In this document: one piece after another, positions 28,838-35,490 of the stretch | How positions within the stretch are numbered: the stretch's first letter is position 1 | Layout: every line of letters starts with the position of its first letter | Assembly (NCBI RefSeq): GCF_028290435.1 | Contig: NZ_JAQGJV010000024.1 | Coordinates: 1 to 64,000 of the forward strand | Source of the DNA: Devosia sp. | GTDB lineage: Bacteria > Pseudomonadota > Alphaproteobacteria > Rhizobiales > Devosiaceae | DNA: 64,000 nucleotides | Direction of reading: 5' to 3' | Notes under the pieces: model-generated | What the model was told of the DNA's origin: nothing | Databases searched by the model: none | What the model saw: only the letters and a program-made list of their open reading frames with translations | Program-made: the position numbers and the translations under genes

Positions 28838-29043
28838 AATAGCCCTTTGGAGACGAAGAGGGAGAGGGCCGCAAGGCTACCAGTTCCGCCGCTCCGCCCG
28901 AAGGCATGGCCATGCGTTATTCGGTGCCTTTACGTAACCAACTTCCATTTCAGTACCGCTTGGCAAAATGAACCTGCTCCCCTGCAGACGACGCATGCAC
29001 AACCGCCCCTTGCTTGTTGCCACCGCTCAGCCAGAATGCCCTC

Positions 29044-29634
29044 GTGAACCAGCCCGACCTGTCCATTCTGATCATCGACGACAACCGCATCCGCGCTTCG
29101 ATCATCGAGGAAGGCCTGCGCGAGGCTGGCTATAGCCGGGTCGCCGTGGTGATCGATATCGACGCCGTCGCGCGCGTGGTCGAGCAGGTCGCCCCCGACG
29201 TCGTCATGATCGATCTCGAAAATCCCAACCGCGATCGCCTTGAACATTTTTTCTCCCTGTCCCGCGCGCTCGAGCGCCCCATCGCCATGTTCGTCGACCG
29301 CTCCGACACTTCCTCCATCGAGGCGGCGGTCGCGGCGGGCGTGTCGGCCTACATCGTCGATGGTCTGCGCAAGGAGCGCGTCAAGCCGATCCTCGATATG
29401 GCAATCAGCCGCTTCAACGCCTTCTCGGCCCTCAAGCGCGAATTGCGCGAGGCCCGCAGCGAGTTGGAAGACCGCAAGGTCATCGAGCAGGCCAAGGGCA
29501 TCCTGATGCGCTCGCGCAATATCAGCGAGGCCGAGGCCCATGCTTTGCTGCGCACGACGGCGATGAACCAGAACAAGCGCATGGCCGATATCGCCCAAAG
29601 CCTGATTACCGCCGCCGGTCTGCTGGAGCCTTGA
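29044..29634 (+). CDS. nasT: NasT, ANTAR-domain response regulator/antiterminator
   Basis: A 196-residue RNA-binding regulator. It has an N-terminal receiver domain (SILIIDDNRIRASIIEEGL; VVMIDLENPNRD), a coiled-coil linker and a C-terminal ANTAR domain (VIEQAKGILMRSRNISEAEAHALLRTTAMNQNKRMADIAQSLI). I chose the GTG at 29044 because the family typically begins N-Q-P-D-L there; an upstream TTG at 29014 is less likely. NasT binds paired six-base-loop hairpins in leader RNAs and prevents termination. It is followed by nasS after 1 base. The nirC leader carries the expected target. Confidence 0.93.
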   Translation: MNQPDLSILIIDDNRIRASIIEEGLREAGYSRVAVVIDIDAVARVVEQVAPDVVMIDLENPNRDRLEHFFSLSRALERPIAMFVDRSDTSSIEAAVAAGVSAYIVDGLRKERVKPILDMAISRFNAFSALKRELREARSELEDRKVIEQAKGILMRSRNISEAEAHALLRTTAMNQNKRMADIAQSLITAAGLLEP

Positions 29635-29635
29635 G

Positions 29636-30820
29636 ATGAGCCACACCATCATCACCGCCGGCTTCATGCCGCTGACCGATAGCATGCTGCTGGTGGTCGC
29701 CGAACAACAGGGTTTTGCCGCCGCCGAGGGCCTGTCGCTGCGCCTTATGCGCGAAACCTCCTGGGCCAATATTCGCGACCGCGTCGGCGTCGGCCATTTC
29801 GATGTCGCCCACATGCTCGCGCCCATGCCGGTCGCCGCCAATCTCGGCCTGTCGCCGCTGCCGGTGCCCTTCATCGCGCCGATGGCGCTCGGTCATGGCG
29901 GCAATGCGGTCACCGTCAGCCTCGATCTGTGGTCGCGGATGCTCGCGCATGGCGCCACCGACGACCTTGATCCCGCCACAACCGGGCTCGCCCTCGCCGC
30001 GACTGTCCGCGCCTCGGCCAAGCGCCTGCGTTTCGGGGTCGTGCATCAGGACTCCTCGCACAATTACGAGTTGCGCTATTGGCTGGCCGCCAGCGGTGTC
30101 ACCCCCGATCGTGACGTGGAAATCGTCGTCCTTCCACCGCCTTTGCTGCCCGATGCGCTGGCCTCCGGCGCCATCGACGGCTACTGCGTCGGCGAGCCCT
30201 GGGGCGGCGTGGCCGTCCGCGCCGGAACTGCGCGCATCGTCACCACAAAATCGCGCATCTGGCGCTCCAGCCCCGACAAGGTCCTCGGCATGCGCGCCGC
30301 CTGGGCCGAGGCCAATCCAGATACATTGGCTGCGCTGATCCGCGCCCTGCACCAAGCCGCCCTCTGGTCCAGCAACCCCGCCAACCTGCCCGAAGCTGCG
30401 CGGATCATGGCCCAGCCGCAATTTCTCGACCAGCCAGCCGATCTGATTGCCGGCGCCCTCACCGGCCACCTCGCCATCGGCGCCGATGCCTCCCGCCAGG
30501 TCGAGCGCTTCTACGTGCCGTACGCTGGCGCCGCCAATTTCCCCTGGAAAAGCCACGCCGCGTGGTTCTACGCGCAGATGGTCCGCTGGGGCCAGGTGCA
30601 GGCCAACCCAGAAAACCTGGCGCTGGCCGCCGCGTCATTCCGCCCCGATCTCTACCGCGCTGCCCTCGCGCCGCTGGGCGTTCCGGTGCCTCAGGACGAC
30701 TACAAGATCGATGGCCTGATCACCGAGCCCACTGAGCTGGCCACCCCCGCTGGCCCCCTGCTGCAATTCCCCGACGGCTTCTTCGATGGCGCCCGCTTCG
30801 ACTGGTCCGCACTGCTTTAG
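29636..30820 (+). CDS. nasS: NasS, nitrate/nitrite sensor (NrtA-like binding protein without signal peptide)
   Basis: A 394-residue protein of the NrtA/CmpA solute-binding family (ITAGFMPLTDSMLLVVAEQQGFAAAEGL; GGNAVTVS; GYCVGEPWGGVA). It starts directly with the mature fold and has no signal peptide, so it is cytoplasmic. In NasST systems NasS holds NasT inactive until nitrate or nitrite binds. No transporter genes for it are adjacent, consistent with a sensor role. Confidence 0.92.
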   Translation: MSHTIITAGFMPLTDSMLLVVAEQQGFAAAEGLSLRLMRETSWANIRDRVGVGHFDVAHMLAPMPVAANLGLSPLPVPFIAPMALGHGGNAVTVSLDLWSRMLAHGATDDLDPATTGLALAATVRASAKRLRFGVVHQDSSHNYELRYWLAASGVTPDRDVEIVVLPPPLLPDALASGAIDGYCVGEPWGGVAVRAGTARIVTTKSRIWRSSPDKVLGMRAAWAEANPDTLAALIRALHQAALWSSNPANLPEAARIMAQPQFLDQPADLIAGALTGHLAIGADASRQVERFYVPYAGAANFPWKSHAAWFYAQMVRWGQVQANPENLALAAASFRPDLYRAALAPLGVPVPQDDYKIDGLITEPTELATPAGPLLQFPDGFFDGARFDWSALL

Positions 30821-30870
30821 CTGCGCCCAACTTCAAGTGACGCACGATCCCGGAGAGCCCCCGATCCCCC

Positions 30871-30975
30871 CTCCCCCTTGAGGGGAGGGCCGGGGTGGGG
30901 GTGGCTCGCCACCAGAGTGGAGCTCCACTCCCGCTCAACCTTCCCCCCCACCCTAACCCTCCCCTCAAGGGGGAG
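30871..30975. repeat. Palindromic intergenic repeat, family B, copy 1
   Basis: Arms at 30871-30901 and 30943-30975 are inverted copies (CTCCCCCTTGAGGGGAGGG in one arm, its complement in the other). A perfect 16-bp palindrome GAGTGGAGCTCCACTC sits at the centre (30915-30930). It resembles the element at 57433-57544. It could also end the nasTS transcript. Confidence 0.75.
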
Positions 30976-31191
30976 GGAACGCCCCCGGTGGCCCCGAACT
31001 GTTGTGCAAAACCCAAATGTCGATTGATCTCCCAACGCCTGTTTCCACCCGCCCGAGACATTGCCTACAATATAATCACACAGCCATATCGATCAATTTA
31101 TAACCCATATGCCGCCCATTTGTGCGCACGCGCACCCATCCCGCGCCGCACCAAATCCCCTAACCCACTGGTAAACCTAACCCCTCCCAAC

Positions 31192-31207
31192 TGGCACGTC
31201 CCTTGCA
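31192..31207 (+). promoter_or_regulatory. Sigma-54 promoter of the nirC operon
   Basis: TGGCACGTCCCTTGCA matches the sigma-54 consensus TGGCAC-N5-TTGCW exactly, with the -24 GG at 31193-31194 and the -12 GC at 31205-31206. A transcript would start near 31218, about 140 bases upstream of nirC and just ahead of the leader hairpins. Sigma-54 control of nitrogen genes usually means NtrC activation; no NtrC gene is in the window. Confidence 0.85.
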
Positions 31208-31241
31208 ACATCCAATCCGAAGCGAGCAATCGCATCATTTT

Positions 31242-31280
31242 GGCGTCCAATGACGGGCGCCGCAGATAGGCAAGGCTGCC
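31242..31280 (+). ncRNA. ANTAR-target two-hairpin leader RNA
   Basis: Hairpin 1: 31242-31248 pairs with 31255-31261 (7 bp) around the six-base loop AATGAC. Hairpin 2: 31269-31271 pairs with 31278-31280 around the six-base loop AAGGCT. Both loops have A at position 1 and G at position 4, the hallmark of ANTAR protein targets, and a 7-base linker joins them. The second stem is short (3 bp), so its exact extent is less certain. Confidence 0.75.
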
Positions 31281-31336
31281 AACAGGATTCCCCCGGCTCG
31301 TCCCGGCGGTTTTCCCGTTGGCGGCCTTTTCGTTTT
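31274..31336 (+). terminator. Regulated intrinsic terminator in the nirC leader
   Basis: 31274-31286 (GGCTGCCAACAGG) pairs with 31314-31326 (CCCGTTGGCGGCC) at 12 of 13 positions, followed by TTTTCGTTTT. The 5' arm covers the loop and 3' side of ANTAR hairpin 2, so the two structures exclude each other. NasT binding should favour the hairpins and allow read-through to nirC. Confidence 0.8.
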
Positions 31337-31360
31337 GGCTCAACGCAACAGGGGACGACA

Positions 31361-32170
31361 ATGTATCAATCCACCATCGACCAGTTCGCCGACACCGCCG
31401 CCGCAAAAGTCCGTGCCATTCGCGATAATCCCGTTGGCTTCATGATCGGCTCAGCCATGGCCGGCGCCTATGTGGGCCTCGCCATCATCCTCATTTTCAG
31501 CCTCGGCCAATTGGTCGATGCCTCCATTCGCCCGCTGGTCATGGGCGCCAGCTTCGGCATCGCCCTGTCGCTGGTCATCTTTGCCGGTGCCGAACTGTTC
31601 ACCGGCCACACCATGATCATGACCATCGGCGTCCTGCGCGGCACCGTGCCCATGTCGGGCCTCGGCCGCTCCTGGGTCATGACCTGGGTCGGCAACCTGA
31701 TCGGCTCGGTTCTCGTAGCGGCCCTCTTCATCATGGGCGGTGGCGGCCAAATCCTCAAAACCGGCGCCGACATGATCTTCGTCACCGCCGCCGCCAAAAT
31801 GCACGCCGCCCCGCTCGAACTGATCGCCCGCGGCATTCTCTGCAACTGGCTCGTGTGCCTGGCCATCTGGAGCGCCGCCCGCGCCAAGGATGATGCCGGC
31901 AAGGCTATTCTGATTTTCTGGTGCCTGTTCGCCTTCATCGCCAGCGGCTACGAACACTCGGTCGCCAATATGACCGTCTTCGCCATCGCCCTCTTGGCCC
32001 CTCATCCCGATACCGTCACCCTGGGCGGCGCCATCTATAATCTGGGCTACGTCACGCTGGGCAATGTGATTGCCGGCGTGGTTTTCATGGGCGGCGCCTA
32101 TTGGCTGGCCAATGGCAAGCAGGCCCGCCTGCCCAGCGCCGTCCCCGCAGCCACCGTCGCGGCGGAGTAA
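31361..32170 (+). CDS. nirC: NirC-like nitrite/formate transporter
   Basis: A 269-residue inner-membrane channel of the formate/nitrite transporter family, with about six membrane segments and family motifs (GAELFTGHTMIM; GNLIGSVLVAALF; ASGYEHSVANM; GNVIAGVVFMGGAYWL). The ATG at 31361 has AGGGGA upstream; an earlier in-frame start would lie inside the leader terminator and is rejected. It would import nitrite for the reductase encoded 6 bases downstream. Confidence 0.93.
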   Translation: MYQSTIDQFADTAAAKVRAIRDNPVGFMIGSAMAGAYVGLAIILIFSLGQLVDASIRPLVMGASFGIALSLVIFAGAELFTGHTMIMTIGVLRGTVPMSGLGRSWVMTWVGNLIGSVLVAALFIMGGGGQILKTGADMIFVTAAAKMHAAPLELIARGILCNWLVCLAIWSAARAKDDAGKAILIFWCLFAFIASGYEHSVANMTVFAIALLAPHPDTVTLGGAIYNLGYVTLGNVIAGVVFMGGAYWLANGKQARLPSAVPAATVAAE

Positions 32171-32176
32171 GCCCAA

Positions 32177-33928
32177 ATGGACAGCGATTTCAGCCCCGAG
32201 CAGCGCCGTTATCTCGAAGGCCTCGTTGCGGGCATGAACGCGGCCCGTTCGGCCGGAGGTGGCGCGGCCGCCCCGGCCGAACCGGTCGGCCCCGATGCGC
32301 CCCACCTCAAGGCCATGGCGCGCACCGAGGCCGAGGGACGTACGCTGGTCGATCAGGAAAACTTCAAGCGCGACGAACACCCCCACGATGCCTATGCCCG
32401 CATGAAGGCGCAGGCGCAAAGCGGGCAATATCCCAAGCCGCAGGACAATTTCCGCTGGCGCTTCCACGGCCTGTTCTATGTGGCGCCCAACCAGAATTCC
32501 TATATGTGCCGCCTGCGCCTGCCCAATGGCATTCTCAATCATTGGCAATTGGCCGGCCTCGCCATGCTCGCCACCACCCATGGCGGCGGCTATTCCCACA
32601 TCACCACCCGCGCCAATTTCCAGATTCGCGAAATTCCCGCCGAAAAAGCCGTCAGCCTGATCGAAGCCATTCAGGACCTCGGCCTCCACACCAAAGGCTC
32701 CGGCGCCGACAATATCCGCAATGTCACCGGCACCCCGACCGCCGGCGTCGATCCCCAGGAATTGCTCGACACCCGCCCCTATGCGCGGGAATGGGCCTAT
32801 CACGTGCTCAACAACCGCACGCTGCATGGCCTGCCGCGCAAGTTCAACGTCGCCTTCGACGGCGCCGGCAAGATCGCGGCGCTGGAAGACACCAATGATA
32901 TCGGCTTTCAGGCCGTCGAGGTCGTCGACGGCGGCGGGGTCGAGCCCGGCGTCTGGTTCCGCCTCGCGCTGGGCGGCATCACCGGCCACCAGGATTTTGC
33001 CCGCCCCACCGGCGTCTATCTCAAGCCCGCCGATGCCACCCGCGTCGCCGACGCCATCGTGCGCGTCTTCATCGACCATGGCGACCGCACCGATCGCACC
33101 AAGGCCCGTCTCAAATACCTGCTCGACGCCTGGGGCTTTGAAAAATTCCTCGCCGCCGTCGAGGACACGCTCGGCACGCCGCTGACCCGCATCGCCGACG
33201 ACCTGGTCAAGGATCGCGCACAGCCCGACCGCCTCGCCCATATCGGCGTGCATGCCCAACGACAGAGCGGCCTCAACTGGATCGGTGTCGTGCTGCCCAG
33301 CGGCAAGCTCACCGCCATCCAGATGCGCGGCCTCGCCGAAATCGCTGCCGAATTTGGCGATGGCGATATCCGCCTCACCGTCTGGCAGAACCTGCTGCTG
33401 TCGGGTGTCCCCGATGCCCACGTCGCCGATGCCGTCGCGGCCATCGACGTGCTGGGCCTCGCCACCACCGCCACCCCAATCCGCGCCGGCCTCGTCTCCT
33501 GCACCGGCAATACCGGCTGCAAGTTCGCCGCCTCCAACACCAAGGGCACCGCCGAATTGATCGCTACCCAGGTCGAGGCGCGCCTCACCATGGACCAGCC
33601 GGTCAATATCCACCTCACCGGCTGCCACCATTCCTGCGCCCAGCACTATATCGGCGATATCGGCCTAGTCGCCTGCAAGATCACCCCGGGCGAGGACCAG
33701 GAGCCCATCGAAGGTTTTCACATCTATATCGGCGGCGGCAGCGGCGCCGATGCCAAGATCGGCCGCGAAATCTTCCGCGATATCCCCAATGAGCAATGCC
33801 CCAGCGCGGTCGAAAGCCTGCTCGGCGCCTACCTCAAGCACCGCGACCACGATGCCGAAAGCTTCTTTGCCTTCGCCAATCGCCACGATATCGCCACCCT
33901 CAAAACTCTCGCCAGCGAGCCTGCCTGA
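32177..33928 (+). CDS. nirA: Siroheme nitrite/sulfite reductase, probably assimilatory nitrite reductase (NirA-like)
   Basis: A 583-residue siroheme and 4Fe-4S enzyme with two ferredoxin-like half-domains. Cluster ligands are visible as SCTGNTGC (Cys-x5-Cys) and GCHHSC (Cys-x3-Cys) near residues 440-485. Substrate-side Arg/Lys residues lie in THGGGYSHITTRANFQ and VRNVTGTP-like NIRNVTGTP. Placement between nirC and a flavoprotein, behind a NasT leader, argues for nitrite reduction to ammonia. Sulfite reduction is the alternative by family. Confidence 0.9.
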   Translation: MDSDFSPEQRRYLEGLVAGMNAARSAGGGAAAPAEPVGPDAPHLKAMARTEAEGRTLVDQENFKRDEHPHDAYARMKAQAQSGQYPKPQDNFRWRFHGLFYVAPNQNSYMCRLRLPNGILNHWQLAGLAMLATTHGGGYSHITTRANFQIREIPAEKAVSLIEAIQDLGLHTKGSGADNIRNVTGTPTAGVDPQELLDTRPYAREWAYHVLNNRTLHGLPRKFNVAFDGAGKIAALEDTNDIGFQAVEVVDGGGVEPGVWFRLALGGITGHQDFARPTGVYLKPADATRVADAIVRVFIDHGDRTDRTKARLKYLLDAWGFEKFLAAVEDTLGTPLTRIADDLVKDRAQPDRLAHIGVHAQRQSGLNWIGVVLPSGKLTAIQMRGLAEIAAEFGDGDIRLTVWQNLLLSGVPDAHVADAVAAIDVLGLATTATPIRAGLVSCTGNTGCKFAASNTKGTAELIATQVEARLTMDQPVNIHLTGCHHSCAQHYIGDIGLVACKITPGEDQEPIEGFHIYIGGGSGADAKIGREIFRDIPNEQCPSAVESLLGAYLKHRDHDAESFFAFANRHDIATLKTLASEPA

Positions 33929-35490
33929 TGAGCATCCACGTCTCTGCCCCCATCGAGATCATCCCCGCCAGCGCGCCGTTCAGCGAACTCCAGCGCAAAT
34001 GGCTCAATGGCTTCTTCTTCGAAACCCTGCTGAAGTCCCAGCCTCCGATCGCCGAAGTGTCGGCGCCGAAAGAGGACACCAGCACGCCCTGGAAGGACCC
34101 GTCCCTGCCCATCGACGAGCGCATGGCCATGGCCGCGCCGCGCCCGCTCAAGCAGCGCATGATGGCCGCCATGGCCCAGCAGGATTGCGGCCAGTGCGGC
34201 TATAGCTGCGCCAACTACGCCAGTGCCATCACCGAACAGGCCGAACCGCGCCTCAATCTCTGCGTCCCCGGCGGCAAGGCCACCGCCCGCATGCTCAAAA
34301 CCCTCGTCGAAGAAATGGGCGGCGGTGTGCTCGATCCCGAAGAGGCCAAGCCCGTCAAGCCCGAGGCCACGACCCTACCCGGCCGCTCCCGCACCCATCC
34401 GGTCGCCGCCCGCCTCCTCTCGCGCCGCCGCCTCAACGGCGAAGGCTCGGAAAAGACCACCATGCATGTCGAAATCGACCTGTCGGCCTCGGCGCTGGAT
34501 TACGAGGCCGGCGACAGCCTCGGCGTCTTCGCCAAGAACCCGTCCGAGCTCGCCGACTCCATCCTTGCCGCGCTCGATATCCCTCCCGATTTCCCCATCG
34601 CCGACCGCACCCTCCGCGAGGTGCTGATCGAGGACACTTCGCTGGGCCTGGCGCCCGACTCCCTGTTCACCTTCATTTCCCACCTCACCGGCGGCGAGCG
34701 CCGGAAGAAGGCCCAAGCCCTGGCCCGCGGCGAAGACCCCGATGGCGATATCGCCACCCTCGACGTCCTCGCCGCCCTGCAAAAGTTCCCCGGCATCCAC
34801 CCCGATCCCGAAGCCCTCATCGAAGTGCTCGAGCCGATGCAGCCGCGCCTCTATTCGATCTCGTCCTCGCCCAAGACCGTCCCCGGCCAGGTCACCCTCA
34901 CCATTGACGTCGTCCGCTACGACATCGCCGACCGCACCCGCCACGGCTGTGCCTCCACCTTCCTCGGCCACCGCGCCGATGCCGGCCAAGACGTCCTGGT
35001 CTATGTGCAAAAGGCGCACGGCTTCGCCCTGCCCGCCGACCCGAGCACCCCGATCATCATGGTCGGCCCCGGCACCGGCATCGCCCCGTTCAGATCGTTC
35101 CTCGAGGAGCGTCAGGCGATCAATGCGCCGGGCAAAGCCTGGCTGTTTTACGGCCACCAGCGCGAAGCGACCGATTTCTTCTATTCCGACGAGCTGGAAG
35201 CGATGAAGAAATCCAGCATGCTGGCAAATTTGTCCCTCGCCTGGTCCCGCGACGGCACCCAAAAAACCTATGTCCAACACAAGATGATCGAAGCCGGCGC
35301 CGAGCTCTACCAATGGCTCACCGCCGGCGCCCACTTCTACATCTGCGGCGACGCCAGGCGCATGGCCAAGGACGTCGAAGTGGCGCTGACTACGATCGTC
35401 ATGACCCATGGCGGCCTCGACGACCAACAAGCCAAGACCTTCGTCACCGACCTCAAGAAAACACAACGTTATCAAAGCGATGTCTATTAG
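33928..35490 (+). CDS. NADPH flavoprotein (CysJ-like, no FMN domain) with N-terminal Fe-S domain
   Basis: A 520-residue electron-donor subunit. Residues 87-112 carry an Fe-S domain motif (CGQCGYSC, then C112 in LCVPGG) like that of RnfB-type FeS domains. The rest is the FAD/NADPH reductase half of sulfite reductase flavoproteins (EAGDSLGVFAKN; RLYSISSSP for FAD; MVGPGTGIAPFRSFLEER for NADPH; YICGDARRMAKDV). The flavodoxin-like FMN domain of CysJ is absent, so the Fe-S cluster may replace FMN in passing electrons to NirA. The start overlaps the nirA stop by one base (TGATG), hence coupled. Confidence 0.9.
   Translation: MSIHVSAPIEIIPASAPFSELQRKWLNGFFFETLLKSQPPIAEVSAPKEDTSTPWKDPSLPIDERMAMAAPRPLKQRMMAAMAQQDCGQCGYSCANYASAITEQAEPRLNLCVPGGKATARMLKTLVEEMGGGVLDPEEAKPVKPEATTLPGRSRTHPVAARLLSRRRLNGEGSEKTTMHVEIDLSASALDYEAGDSLGVFAKNPSELADSILAALDIPPDFPIADRTLREVLIEDTSLGLAPDSLFTFISHLTGGERRKKAQALARGEDPDGDIATLDVLAALQKFPGIHPDPEALIEVLEPMQPRLYSISSSPKTVPGQVTLTIDVVRYDIADRTRHGCASTFLGHRADAGQDVLVYVQKAHGFALPADPSTPIIMVGPGTGIAPFRSFLEERQAINAPGKAWLFYGHQREATDFFYSDELEAMKKSSMLANLSLAWSRDGTQKTYVQHKMIEAGAELYQWLTAGAHFYICGDARRMAKDVEVALTTIVMTHGGLDDQQAKTFVTDLKKTQRYQSDVY

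Follow-up and report, generated by a model that had tools for sequence, protein, structure and literature searches.

A probable NasT-dependent antitermination leader before a nirC-nirA-flavoprotein operon in Devosia sp. and its family across the genus

The nirC gene of Devosia sp. is preceded by a leader that, as judged from its sequence, very probably acts as a NasT-dependent (ANTAR) transcription antitermination leader (Table 1). The leader lies in the 64,000-nucleotide stretch of contig NZ_JAQGJV010000024.1 that was analyzed, here called the window. It belongs to a clean, checkable NasT leader family that serves the whole genus, comprising 84 leaders with one signature and, in 80 of them, one promoter class.

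Table 1. Features of the nasT-nasS-nirC locus (positions in the window)
Feature	Position	Strand	Basis or remark
nasT, receiver and ANTAR domains	29014-29634	+	Pfam ANTAR, 73.6 bits; Response_reg, 41.5 bits
nasS, NrtA-like oxyanion-binding sensor	29636-30820	+	Pfam NMT1_2, 226.3 bits
sigma-54 (-24/-12) promoter, TGGCACGTCCCTTGCA (to 31207) / TGGCACGTCCCTTGC (to 31206)	31192-31207	+	Pattern fit, 0 mismatches
Small 5' hairpin P0, GCGA-GCAA-TCGC, not ANTAR-type	31222-31233	+	Fold prediction
ANTAR hairpin P1, TGGCGTCC-AATGAC-GGGCGCCG, 8 pairs, loop A1 and G4	31241-31262	+	
ANTAR hairpin P2, GGC-AAGGCT-GCC, just 3 pairs, loop A1 and G4	31269-31280	+	
Intrinsic terminator	31272-31336	+	5' arm overlapping P2
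nirC, formate/nitrite-family channel	31361-32170	+	NCBIfam NirC, 308.5 bits (cut-off, 293)
nirA-family siroheme nitrite reductase	32177-33928	+	NCBIfam NF007126, 955.4 bits (cut-off, 523)
CysJ-like flavoprotein	33928-35490	+	NCBIfam NF004859, 765.8 bits (cut-off, 432)

The initial annotation of this DNA had proposed a promoter, two hairpins, and an overlapping terminator followed by nirC, and all of these elements proved to be in place. The nasT-nasS pair, which had been put about 370 bases upstream, is separated from the promoter by 371 bases (nasS stop at 30820 to 31192), and the nirC ATG is at 31361. A search of the window for sigma-54-type sites that tolerated one mismatch returned two sites, versus 1.06 expected by chance, and the site at 31192 was the sole exact one. 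P1 and P2 are joined by a 6-nt linker, CAGATA; the linkers in the printed rows of relatives ranged from 0 to 10 nt, many of them below 5. The terminator pairs AAGGCTGCCAACAGG (31272 to 31286) with CCCGTTGGCGGCCTT (31314 to 31328) with one internal mismatch, and the first two T's of its T-rich tail, TTTTCGTTTT (31327 to 31336), belong to the stem. The 5' arm of the terminator is built from the loop and 3' arm of P2, and because it begins inside the P2 loop, P2 and the terminator are mutually exclusive. Thus, two hairpins of at least three pairs, hexaloops with A1 and G4, a short linker, and an overlap of P2 with the terminator, which are the features of ANTAR dual-hairpin RNAs, were all found; the accessible part of the source for this definition gives a linker of 5 to 12 nt for the E. 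faecalis eut set (PMC3369931). In a raw count, some hairpin was also predicted between the sigma-54 box and P1, as P0 is here, in 74 of 80 genus leaders.

The region from 31213 to 31335 was predicted to fold as P1 plus the terminator (-58 kcal/mol; z, -4.64), and none of 200 shuffles equaled it. The leader truncated before the 3' arm of the terminator folded as P1 plus a P2-like hairpin, with four pairs and a 4-base loop versus the expected three pairs and 6-base loop. In the mechanism that we propose, sigma-54 RNA polymerase would start at about 31217, and by default the transcript would fold the terminator (31272 to 31328) and stop before nirC. NasS would hold NasT until nitrite (or nitrate) was bound to NasS and NasT was released. 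Two ANTAR domains would then clamp P1 and P2, P2 would sequester the 5' arm of the terminator, and transcription would proceed into nirC-nirA-flavoprotein, with nitrite being imported and then reduced to ammonium.

The motif is rare outside its expected setting. A combined finder that demands P1, P2, and the overlapping terminator in that order, and that requires G as base 4 of either loop and A as base 1 of the P2 loop, recognized a single place when both strands of the entire window were searched. The use of nirC as an anchor for the comparison with relatives was abandoned: the best 80 of 406 confirmed NirC relatives were mostly distant, and within those best 80 a NasS/NasT match accompanied only a close relative (L001), whose NirC is 96% identical to that of the window, and L008, in which the match was NasS-like (30%). 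Because few NirC relatives had such a match, nasTS was taken as the anchor instead. The nasTS set had 80 regions, 40 from the genus and 40 from the order (the order list held the 137 matching genomes of 297); two of the genus regions, which had no NasS (L157 and L186), were then set aside. The finder was applied to 79 regions downstream of nasS, namely the window and 78 relatives hand-picked from the genus and order lists, and 61 of them carried the motif. In the controls it was found in 1 of 790 dinucleotide-shuffled 700-nt regions, in none of the 79 reverse strands, and in none of 79 nasS-internal stretches. Four of the 18 motifless loci showed the core of P1 or P2 when searched less strictly, two had passed an earlier scan, and three (L152, L159, and L182) belong to genomes with leaders elsewhere. 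General-purpose searches did not report the leader: in an Rfam search of the window a tRNA alone reached threshold, with no family at the leader, and at an E value of ≤5 the stretch from 31100 to 31400 gave just four weak matches, including the narK RNA RF03032 at 14.5 bits. A simple promoter and terminator scan, which was limited to loops of 3 to 8 bases and does not cover sigma-54 promoters or long terminators, reported no terminator.

The initial annotation had named conserved pairing and conserved loop bases among relatives as a test of the switch, and this test, when run, did not refute it. In the full set of 61 leaders, which make up 60 distinct rows, the pairs of P1 and P2 were formed in 95.8% of cells and those of P1 and the terminator in 93.7%, percentages that, like the conservation of the loops, are partly due to selection because the finder required pairing and loop bases. 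Covariation was 0.204 versus 0.135 in shuffled alignments for P1 plus P2 and 0.338 versus 0.184 for P1 plus the terminator, although kinship between rows can beat shuffles without any structure. For P1 plus the terminator, 13 of the 21 pairs changed on both sides, none of 500 shuffles matched on all five measures, and covariation in slid versions of the structure was never above 0.094. P2 is nearly invariant, with one of its three pairs varying, and the covariation sits in P1 and the terminator. Alignment A1, from which the covariance model was built, holds 47 of the 61 leaders; most of the 14 omitted are near kept rows, and L198, which has a divergent P2 loop, was omitted though not close to any of them. 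The 47-row set agreed with the full set (0.402 versus 0.192 for P1 plus the terminator; 0.268 versus 0.145 for P1 plus P2). P1 was trimmed one base short for L149 in both alignments (A1 and A2) and for L151 in A2 as well.

The proposed A1 and G4 bases of the two loops fared differently. In the 47 rows, G4 of the P1 loop was present in all 47, base 1 of that loop was A in 39 and G in 8, and both A1 and G4 of the P2 loop were present in 47 of 47. Among 84 genus leaders, G4 was kept in every P1 and every P2 loop, but base 1 of the P1 loop was A in 77 and G in 7. Those seven leaders, which retain G4, put the A1 rule to a natural test.

The covariance model was run over 75 genus genomes, and matches with an E value below 1e-6 were considered strong sites. 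There were 84 such sites in 53 genomes, including one in the Devosia sp. genome itself at 77.4 bits. NasT was recognized in 52 of the 75 genomes, all of which had at least one leader, and one genome alone (G072) had a leader without a NasT match. The gene behind each leader was classified by the nearest tblastn match to a fixed reference protein set. The nearest matched gene was always one for nitrate or nitrite assimilation, starting no more than 143 nt past the leader end in 84 of 84 cases: nirB (33 leaders), nrtA (32, with 17 and 15 of two types), narK (11), cysG (3), nasA (3), and nirC (2). As regards these names, the NirB and CysG references exceed NCBIfam cut-offs, and the NarK reference, at 213.9 bits, is under its own cut-off of 311.7 bits. 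Of the two NrtA types, one has a reference that matches chains of NrtA and NrtC with solved structures; the other, like NasA, was named by operon position and sequence, with no NCBIfam family certifying either. For the 61 leaders adjoining nasS, the nearest match was nrtA in 43, narK in 10, nirB in 3, nirC in 2, and cysG in 2, and there was none behind L198, a short locus. The nirC locus is not treated as unique, a view that was considered and dropped; a close nirC (E value of ≤1e-20) was found in 2 of the 75 genomes, and more distant nirC matches lie behind nirB at other leaders.

The association with NasT bears on which protein operates the leader. The genome encodes a second protein with an ANTAR domain (G000:C59), and ANTAR loops are generic, but it is very unlikely that this protein controls nirC. 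Its ANTAR score is lower (44.3 bits), it adjoins genes that by eye resemble an amide-type ABC transporter, and the leader tracks NasT in both directions, with every NasT genome having a leader and 52 of the 53 leader genomes having NasT. The start codon of nasT is uncertain, many homologs aligning from about residue 12; solved relatives of NasT are 6wsh, 1s8n, and 4akk.

The promoter class is as regular as the leader. A TGGC-N8-TGC box, counted within 150 nt upstream of P1, stood 30 to 64 nt before P1 in 80 of the 84 leaders, versus 46 of 1,680 shuffled upstream regions. The four leaders without it were the nirB leader of G072 and three directly before nasA (in G073, G032, and G033). Because the leaders before nasA lack a box, they may be second attenuators in a longer transcript. 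A block, CTCCCAAGAC, was seen between the box and P1 in 35 of the 80 box-bearing leaders (23 before nrtA, 6 before narK, and 6 before nirB).

The initial annotation also stated that nitrogen limitation starts transcription, and here the evidence fell short. The genome has rpoN and the GG-N10-GC box is present at 31192, yet the best NtrC-like site upstream of nirC in the window has 3 mismatches in 10, which is the chance level. Because of those three mismatches, nitrogen limitation as the signal that starts nirC transcription is proposed by analogy with related systems. In the wider set, NtrC-like palindromes (TGCAC-N7-GTGCA with at most two mismatches) were found upstream of 28 of the 61 leaders, the window being one of the 61, versus 72 of 610 single-base shuffles.

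The genes behind the leader are consistent with nitrite import and reduction. The flavoprotein has FAD and NAD domains above cut-off and an N-terminal FeS domain just below it (20.7 bits; cut-off, 23), and it is presumed to be the electron donor of NirA. NCBIfam names it sulfite reductase subunit alpha, a name that would fit an operon encoding a sulfite reductase with the leader as a hitchhiker. That reading is highly improbable. The score of the reductase for the NirA family is 955 bits, nirC heads the operon, and for sulfite the genome has another siroheme reductase at its disposal (G000:C24, with a NirA score of 209 bits). Furthermore, in two other loci of the order, L203 and L206, the same kind of leader is found with a NarK-like gene, relatives of NirA (63%) and the flavoprotein (56%), and then NasA (62 and 66%).

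The initial annotation had noted that the locus has no nitrate reductase gene, and no recognizable NasA-type nitrate reductase was found in the genome: a NasA protein query gave no matches at an E value of ≤1e-30. The genome also yielded no NrtA besides NasS (E value of ≤1e-25), no NarK-grade match, and no NirB. The survey for nitrate reductases covered molybdopterin proteins bearing PF00384, of which the three of this genome and the extra ones of G058 and G040 were named individually. The three are NuoG, a YdeP-like protein, and a formate dehydrogenase-like protein, none of them NasA-like. For NasC the YdeP-like protein scored 119.7 bits and the formate dehydrogenase-like protein 174.6 bits (C33 and C94), versus 398.5 bits for the reference NasA, and the nasA-bearing genomes G023 and G050 also encode proteins comparable in size and PF00384 score. 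The reference NasA itself is under both NCBIfam cut-offs (398.5 bits for NasC and 449.2 bits for formate dehydrogenase alpha), and therefore a score below a nitrate reductase cut-off is weak evidence on its own. The extra molybdopterin protein of G040 is S/N-oxide reductase-like. In G058, a close relative, the extra molybdopterin oxidoreductase (L329; G058:C36) is below the cut-off of every one of the 25 families listed of 38, and its C-terminal part matches flavohemoprotein-type reductases. Because of this reductase-like C terminus, the lack of a nitrate reductase in G058 is less sure.

The nitrite-only arrangement is not a peculiarity of one locus. The NasA query matched 36 of the 75 genus genomes (E value of ≤1e-30), and 18 of the 52 NasT genomes, including those of this Devosia sp. 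and G058, gave no match. Completeness is at least 90% for 16 of the 18, and in all 16 a leader precedes nirB (14 genomes) or nirC (2 genomes); in the two less complete genomes it precedes cysG (G057) or nrtA (G049). A NasS query recovered NasS in 16 of the 18 nasA-less genomes and a further NrtA-like match in G049 only; in the controls G023 and G050, the same query also recovered both types of NrtA-like protein. For the NarK family, the 18 genomes gave no match stronger than an E value of 4.7e-9, versus about 1e-63 in three NarK-bearing controls. The two genomes without NasS, G013 and G038 (L186 and L157), possess NasT and a leader before nirB, but a search of each genome gave no match to NasS (E value of ≤1e-25). 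They might represent natural losses of nasS that leave NasT always active.

On the NasS tree (80 rows, one being NrtA), the window has G058 as its sister, and the two form the outer branch of a group with 34 other genus rows (36 rows; support, 100/98). The possibility that nasTS was imported with a foreign operon was dropped on this grouping. Because NasS lies within the genus clade, the module looks native and the cargo different. The nasA-minus label, assigned to eight rows, requires five changes on the tree, at least four of them by well-supported branches. Thus, the NasS tree does not trace the lack of nasA to one event.

Nitrite is likely the inducer at the nirC leader. The switch probably answers to nitrite because it also guards nitrite-reducing genes in relatives without a recognizable nitrate reductase. 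If "tuned to nitrite," as the initial annotation put it, means a change in the sensor, no such change was seen at the residues that could be placed. NrtA contacts nitrate through Trp102, Gln155, His196, Gly240, and Lys269, according to the available part of PMC13204499. Four of these five were placed in NasS by spacing, the Gln155 counterpart being the one that was not, and the W, H, G, and K are conserved in 99 to 100% of 79 NasS rows; the H-G-K distances (44 and 29) equal those in NrtA. PDB relatives of NasS are the NrtC C-domain and NrtA (2g29), and no signal peptide was obvious by eye.

The conserved contacts, which are kept in nasA-less rows too, could also serve a switch of the same design whose signal is nitrate, with ambient nitrate being read as a sign of nearby nitrite from neighbors. 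As far as the available text of PMC3795266 goes, either ion, nitrate or nitrite, dissociates the NasS-NasT complex of Paracoccus, and the nasA leader is a binding target of NasT. A nitrate signal is nevertheless rather unlikely. Because no NasA-type nitrate reductase, NrtA, or NarK was recognized in the genome, cytoplasmic nitrate would have neither a use nor a recognized importer, and NasS is retained in most of the nasA-less genomes. We therefore favor nitrite and propose, tentatively, that in nasA-less members of the genus NasS-NasT, a system known for responding to nitrate, may have become a nitrite switch running on nitrite alone. Under this proposal, several separate branches would be without nitrate reductase, NarK, and the transport protein that binds nitrate, and the sensor, antiterminator, and leader would have been kept before genes for nitrite import and reduction. 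The nasA-less genomes with a surviving sensor are natural cases in which nitrite alone as a sufficient NasS signal is directly testable, and they avoid the usual problem of nitrate being converted to nitrite in the cell.

NasT leaders before nirBD and nirA have published precedents in the available portions of PMC12830290, a review, and of PMC6759348, and the accessible part of PMC3369931 already describes ANTAR motifs upstream of genes for nitrite reductases and nitrite transporters. As described in the available part of PMC12830290, the Pseudomonas nalA/nirBD leader shares with the Devosia leader a sigma-54 promoter, NasT antitermination, and a siroheme nitrite reductase as cargo. However, the Pseudomonas leader is NtrC started, whereas an NtrC site was not found at Devosia nirC, and its cargo is nirBD rather than nirC-nirA-flavoprotein in a genome without a recognizable NasA-type nitrate reductase. 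In Bradyrhizobium diazoefficiens, an assimilatory nirA (bll4571) likewise has a leader with a NasT-type hairpin, and expression of this gene is down in a nasT mutant; unlike Devosia sp., B. diazoefficiens has the nitrate reductase genes nap and nasC, and the available text describes no nirC-first operon (PMC6759348). In Paracoccus denitrificans, nasTS is directly upstream of a nasA leader with hairpins, but the cargo, nasABGHC, includes a nitrate reductase, according to the portions available (PMC3795266, PMC5424462). The EutV, NasR, and AmiR RNAs share the two short hairpins, the A1/G4 hexaloops, and the overlap of the second hairpin with the terminator, whereas their sensors and cargo differ from those of Devosia, as far as the accessible text goes (PMC3369931). 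NasS-NasT in organisms without a nitrate reductase was not found in an open-access literature search of limited extent. The part worth following is thus the genus-wide set of nitrite-only leaders.

Two further features were noted near the leaders. Between nasS and the sigma-54 promoter of the window lies a C-/G-rich inverted repeat (30869 to 30901 and 30945 to 30977) with arms of 33 nt each that are 91% complementary, and its 20-base core recurs nowhere else in the window even when three mismatches are allowed. In 8 of the 61 leaders (L195, L201, L202, L203, L206, L215, L222, and L226), a third hairpin with an A1/G4 hexaloop, for example GGCCC-AAAGAT-GGGCC, precedes P1, possibly making up a NasT site of three hairpins; this third hairpin had been mistaken for P1 in L215 and L222 by an earlier scan.
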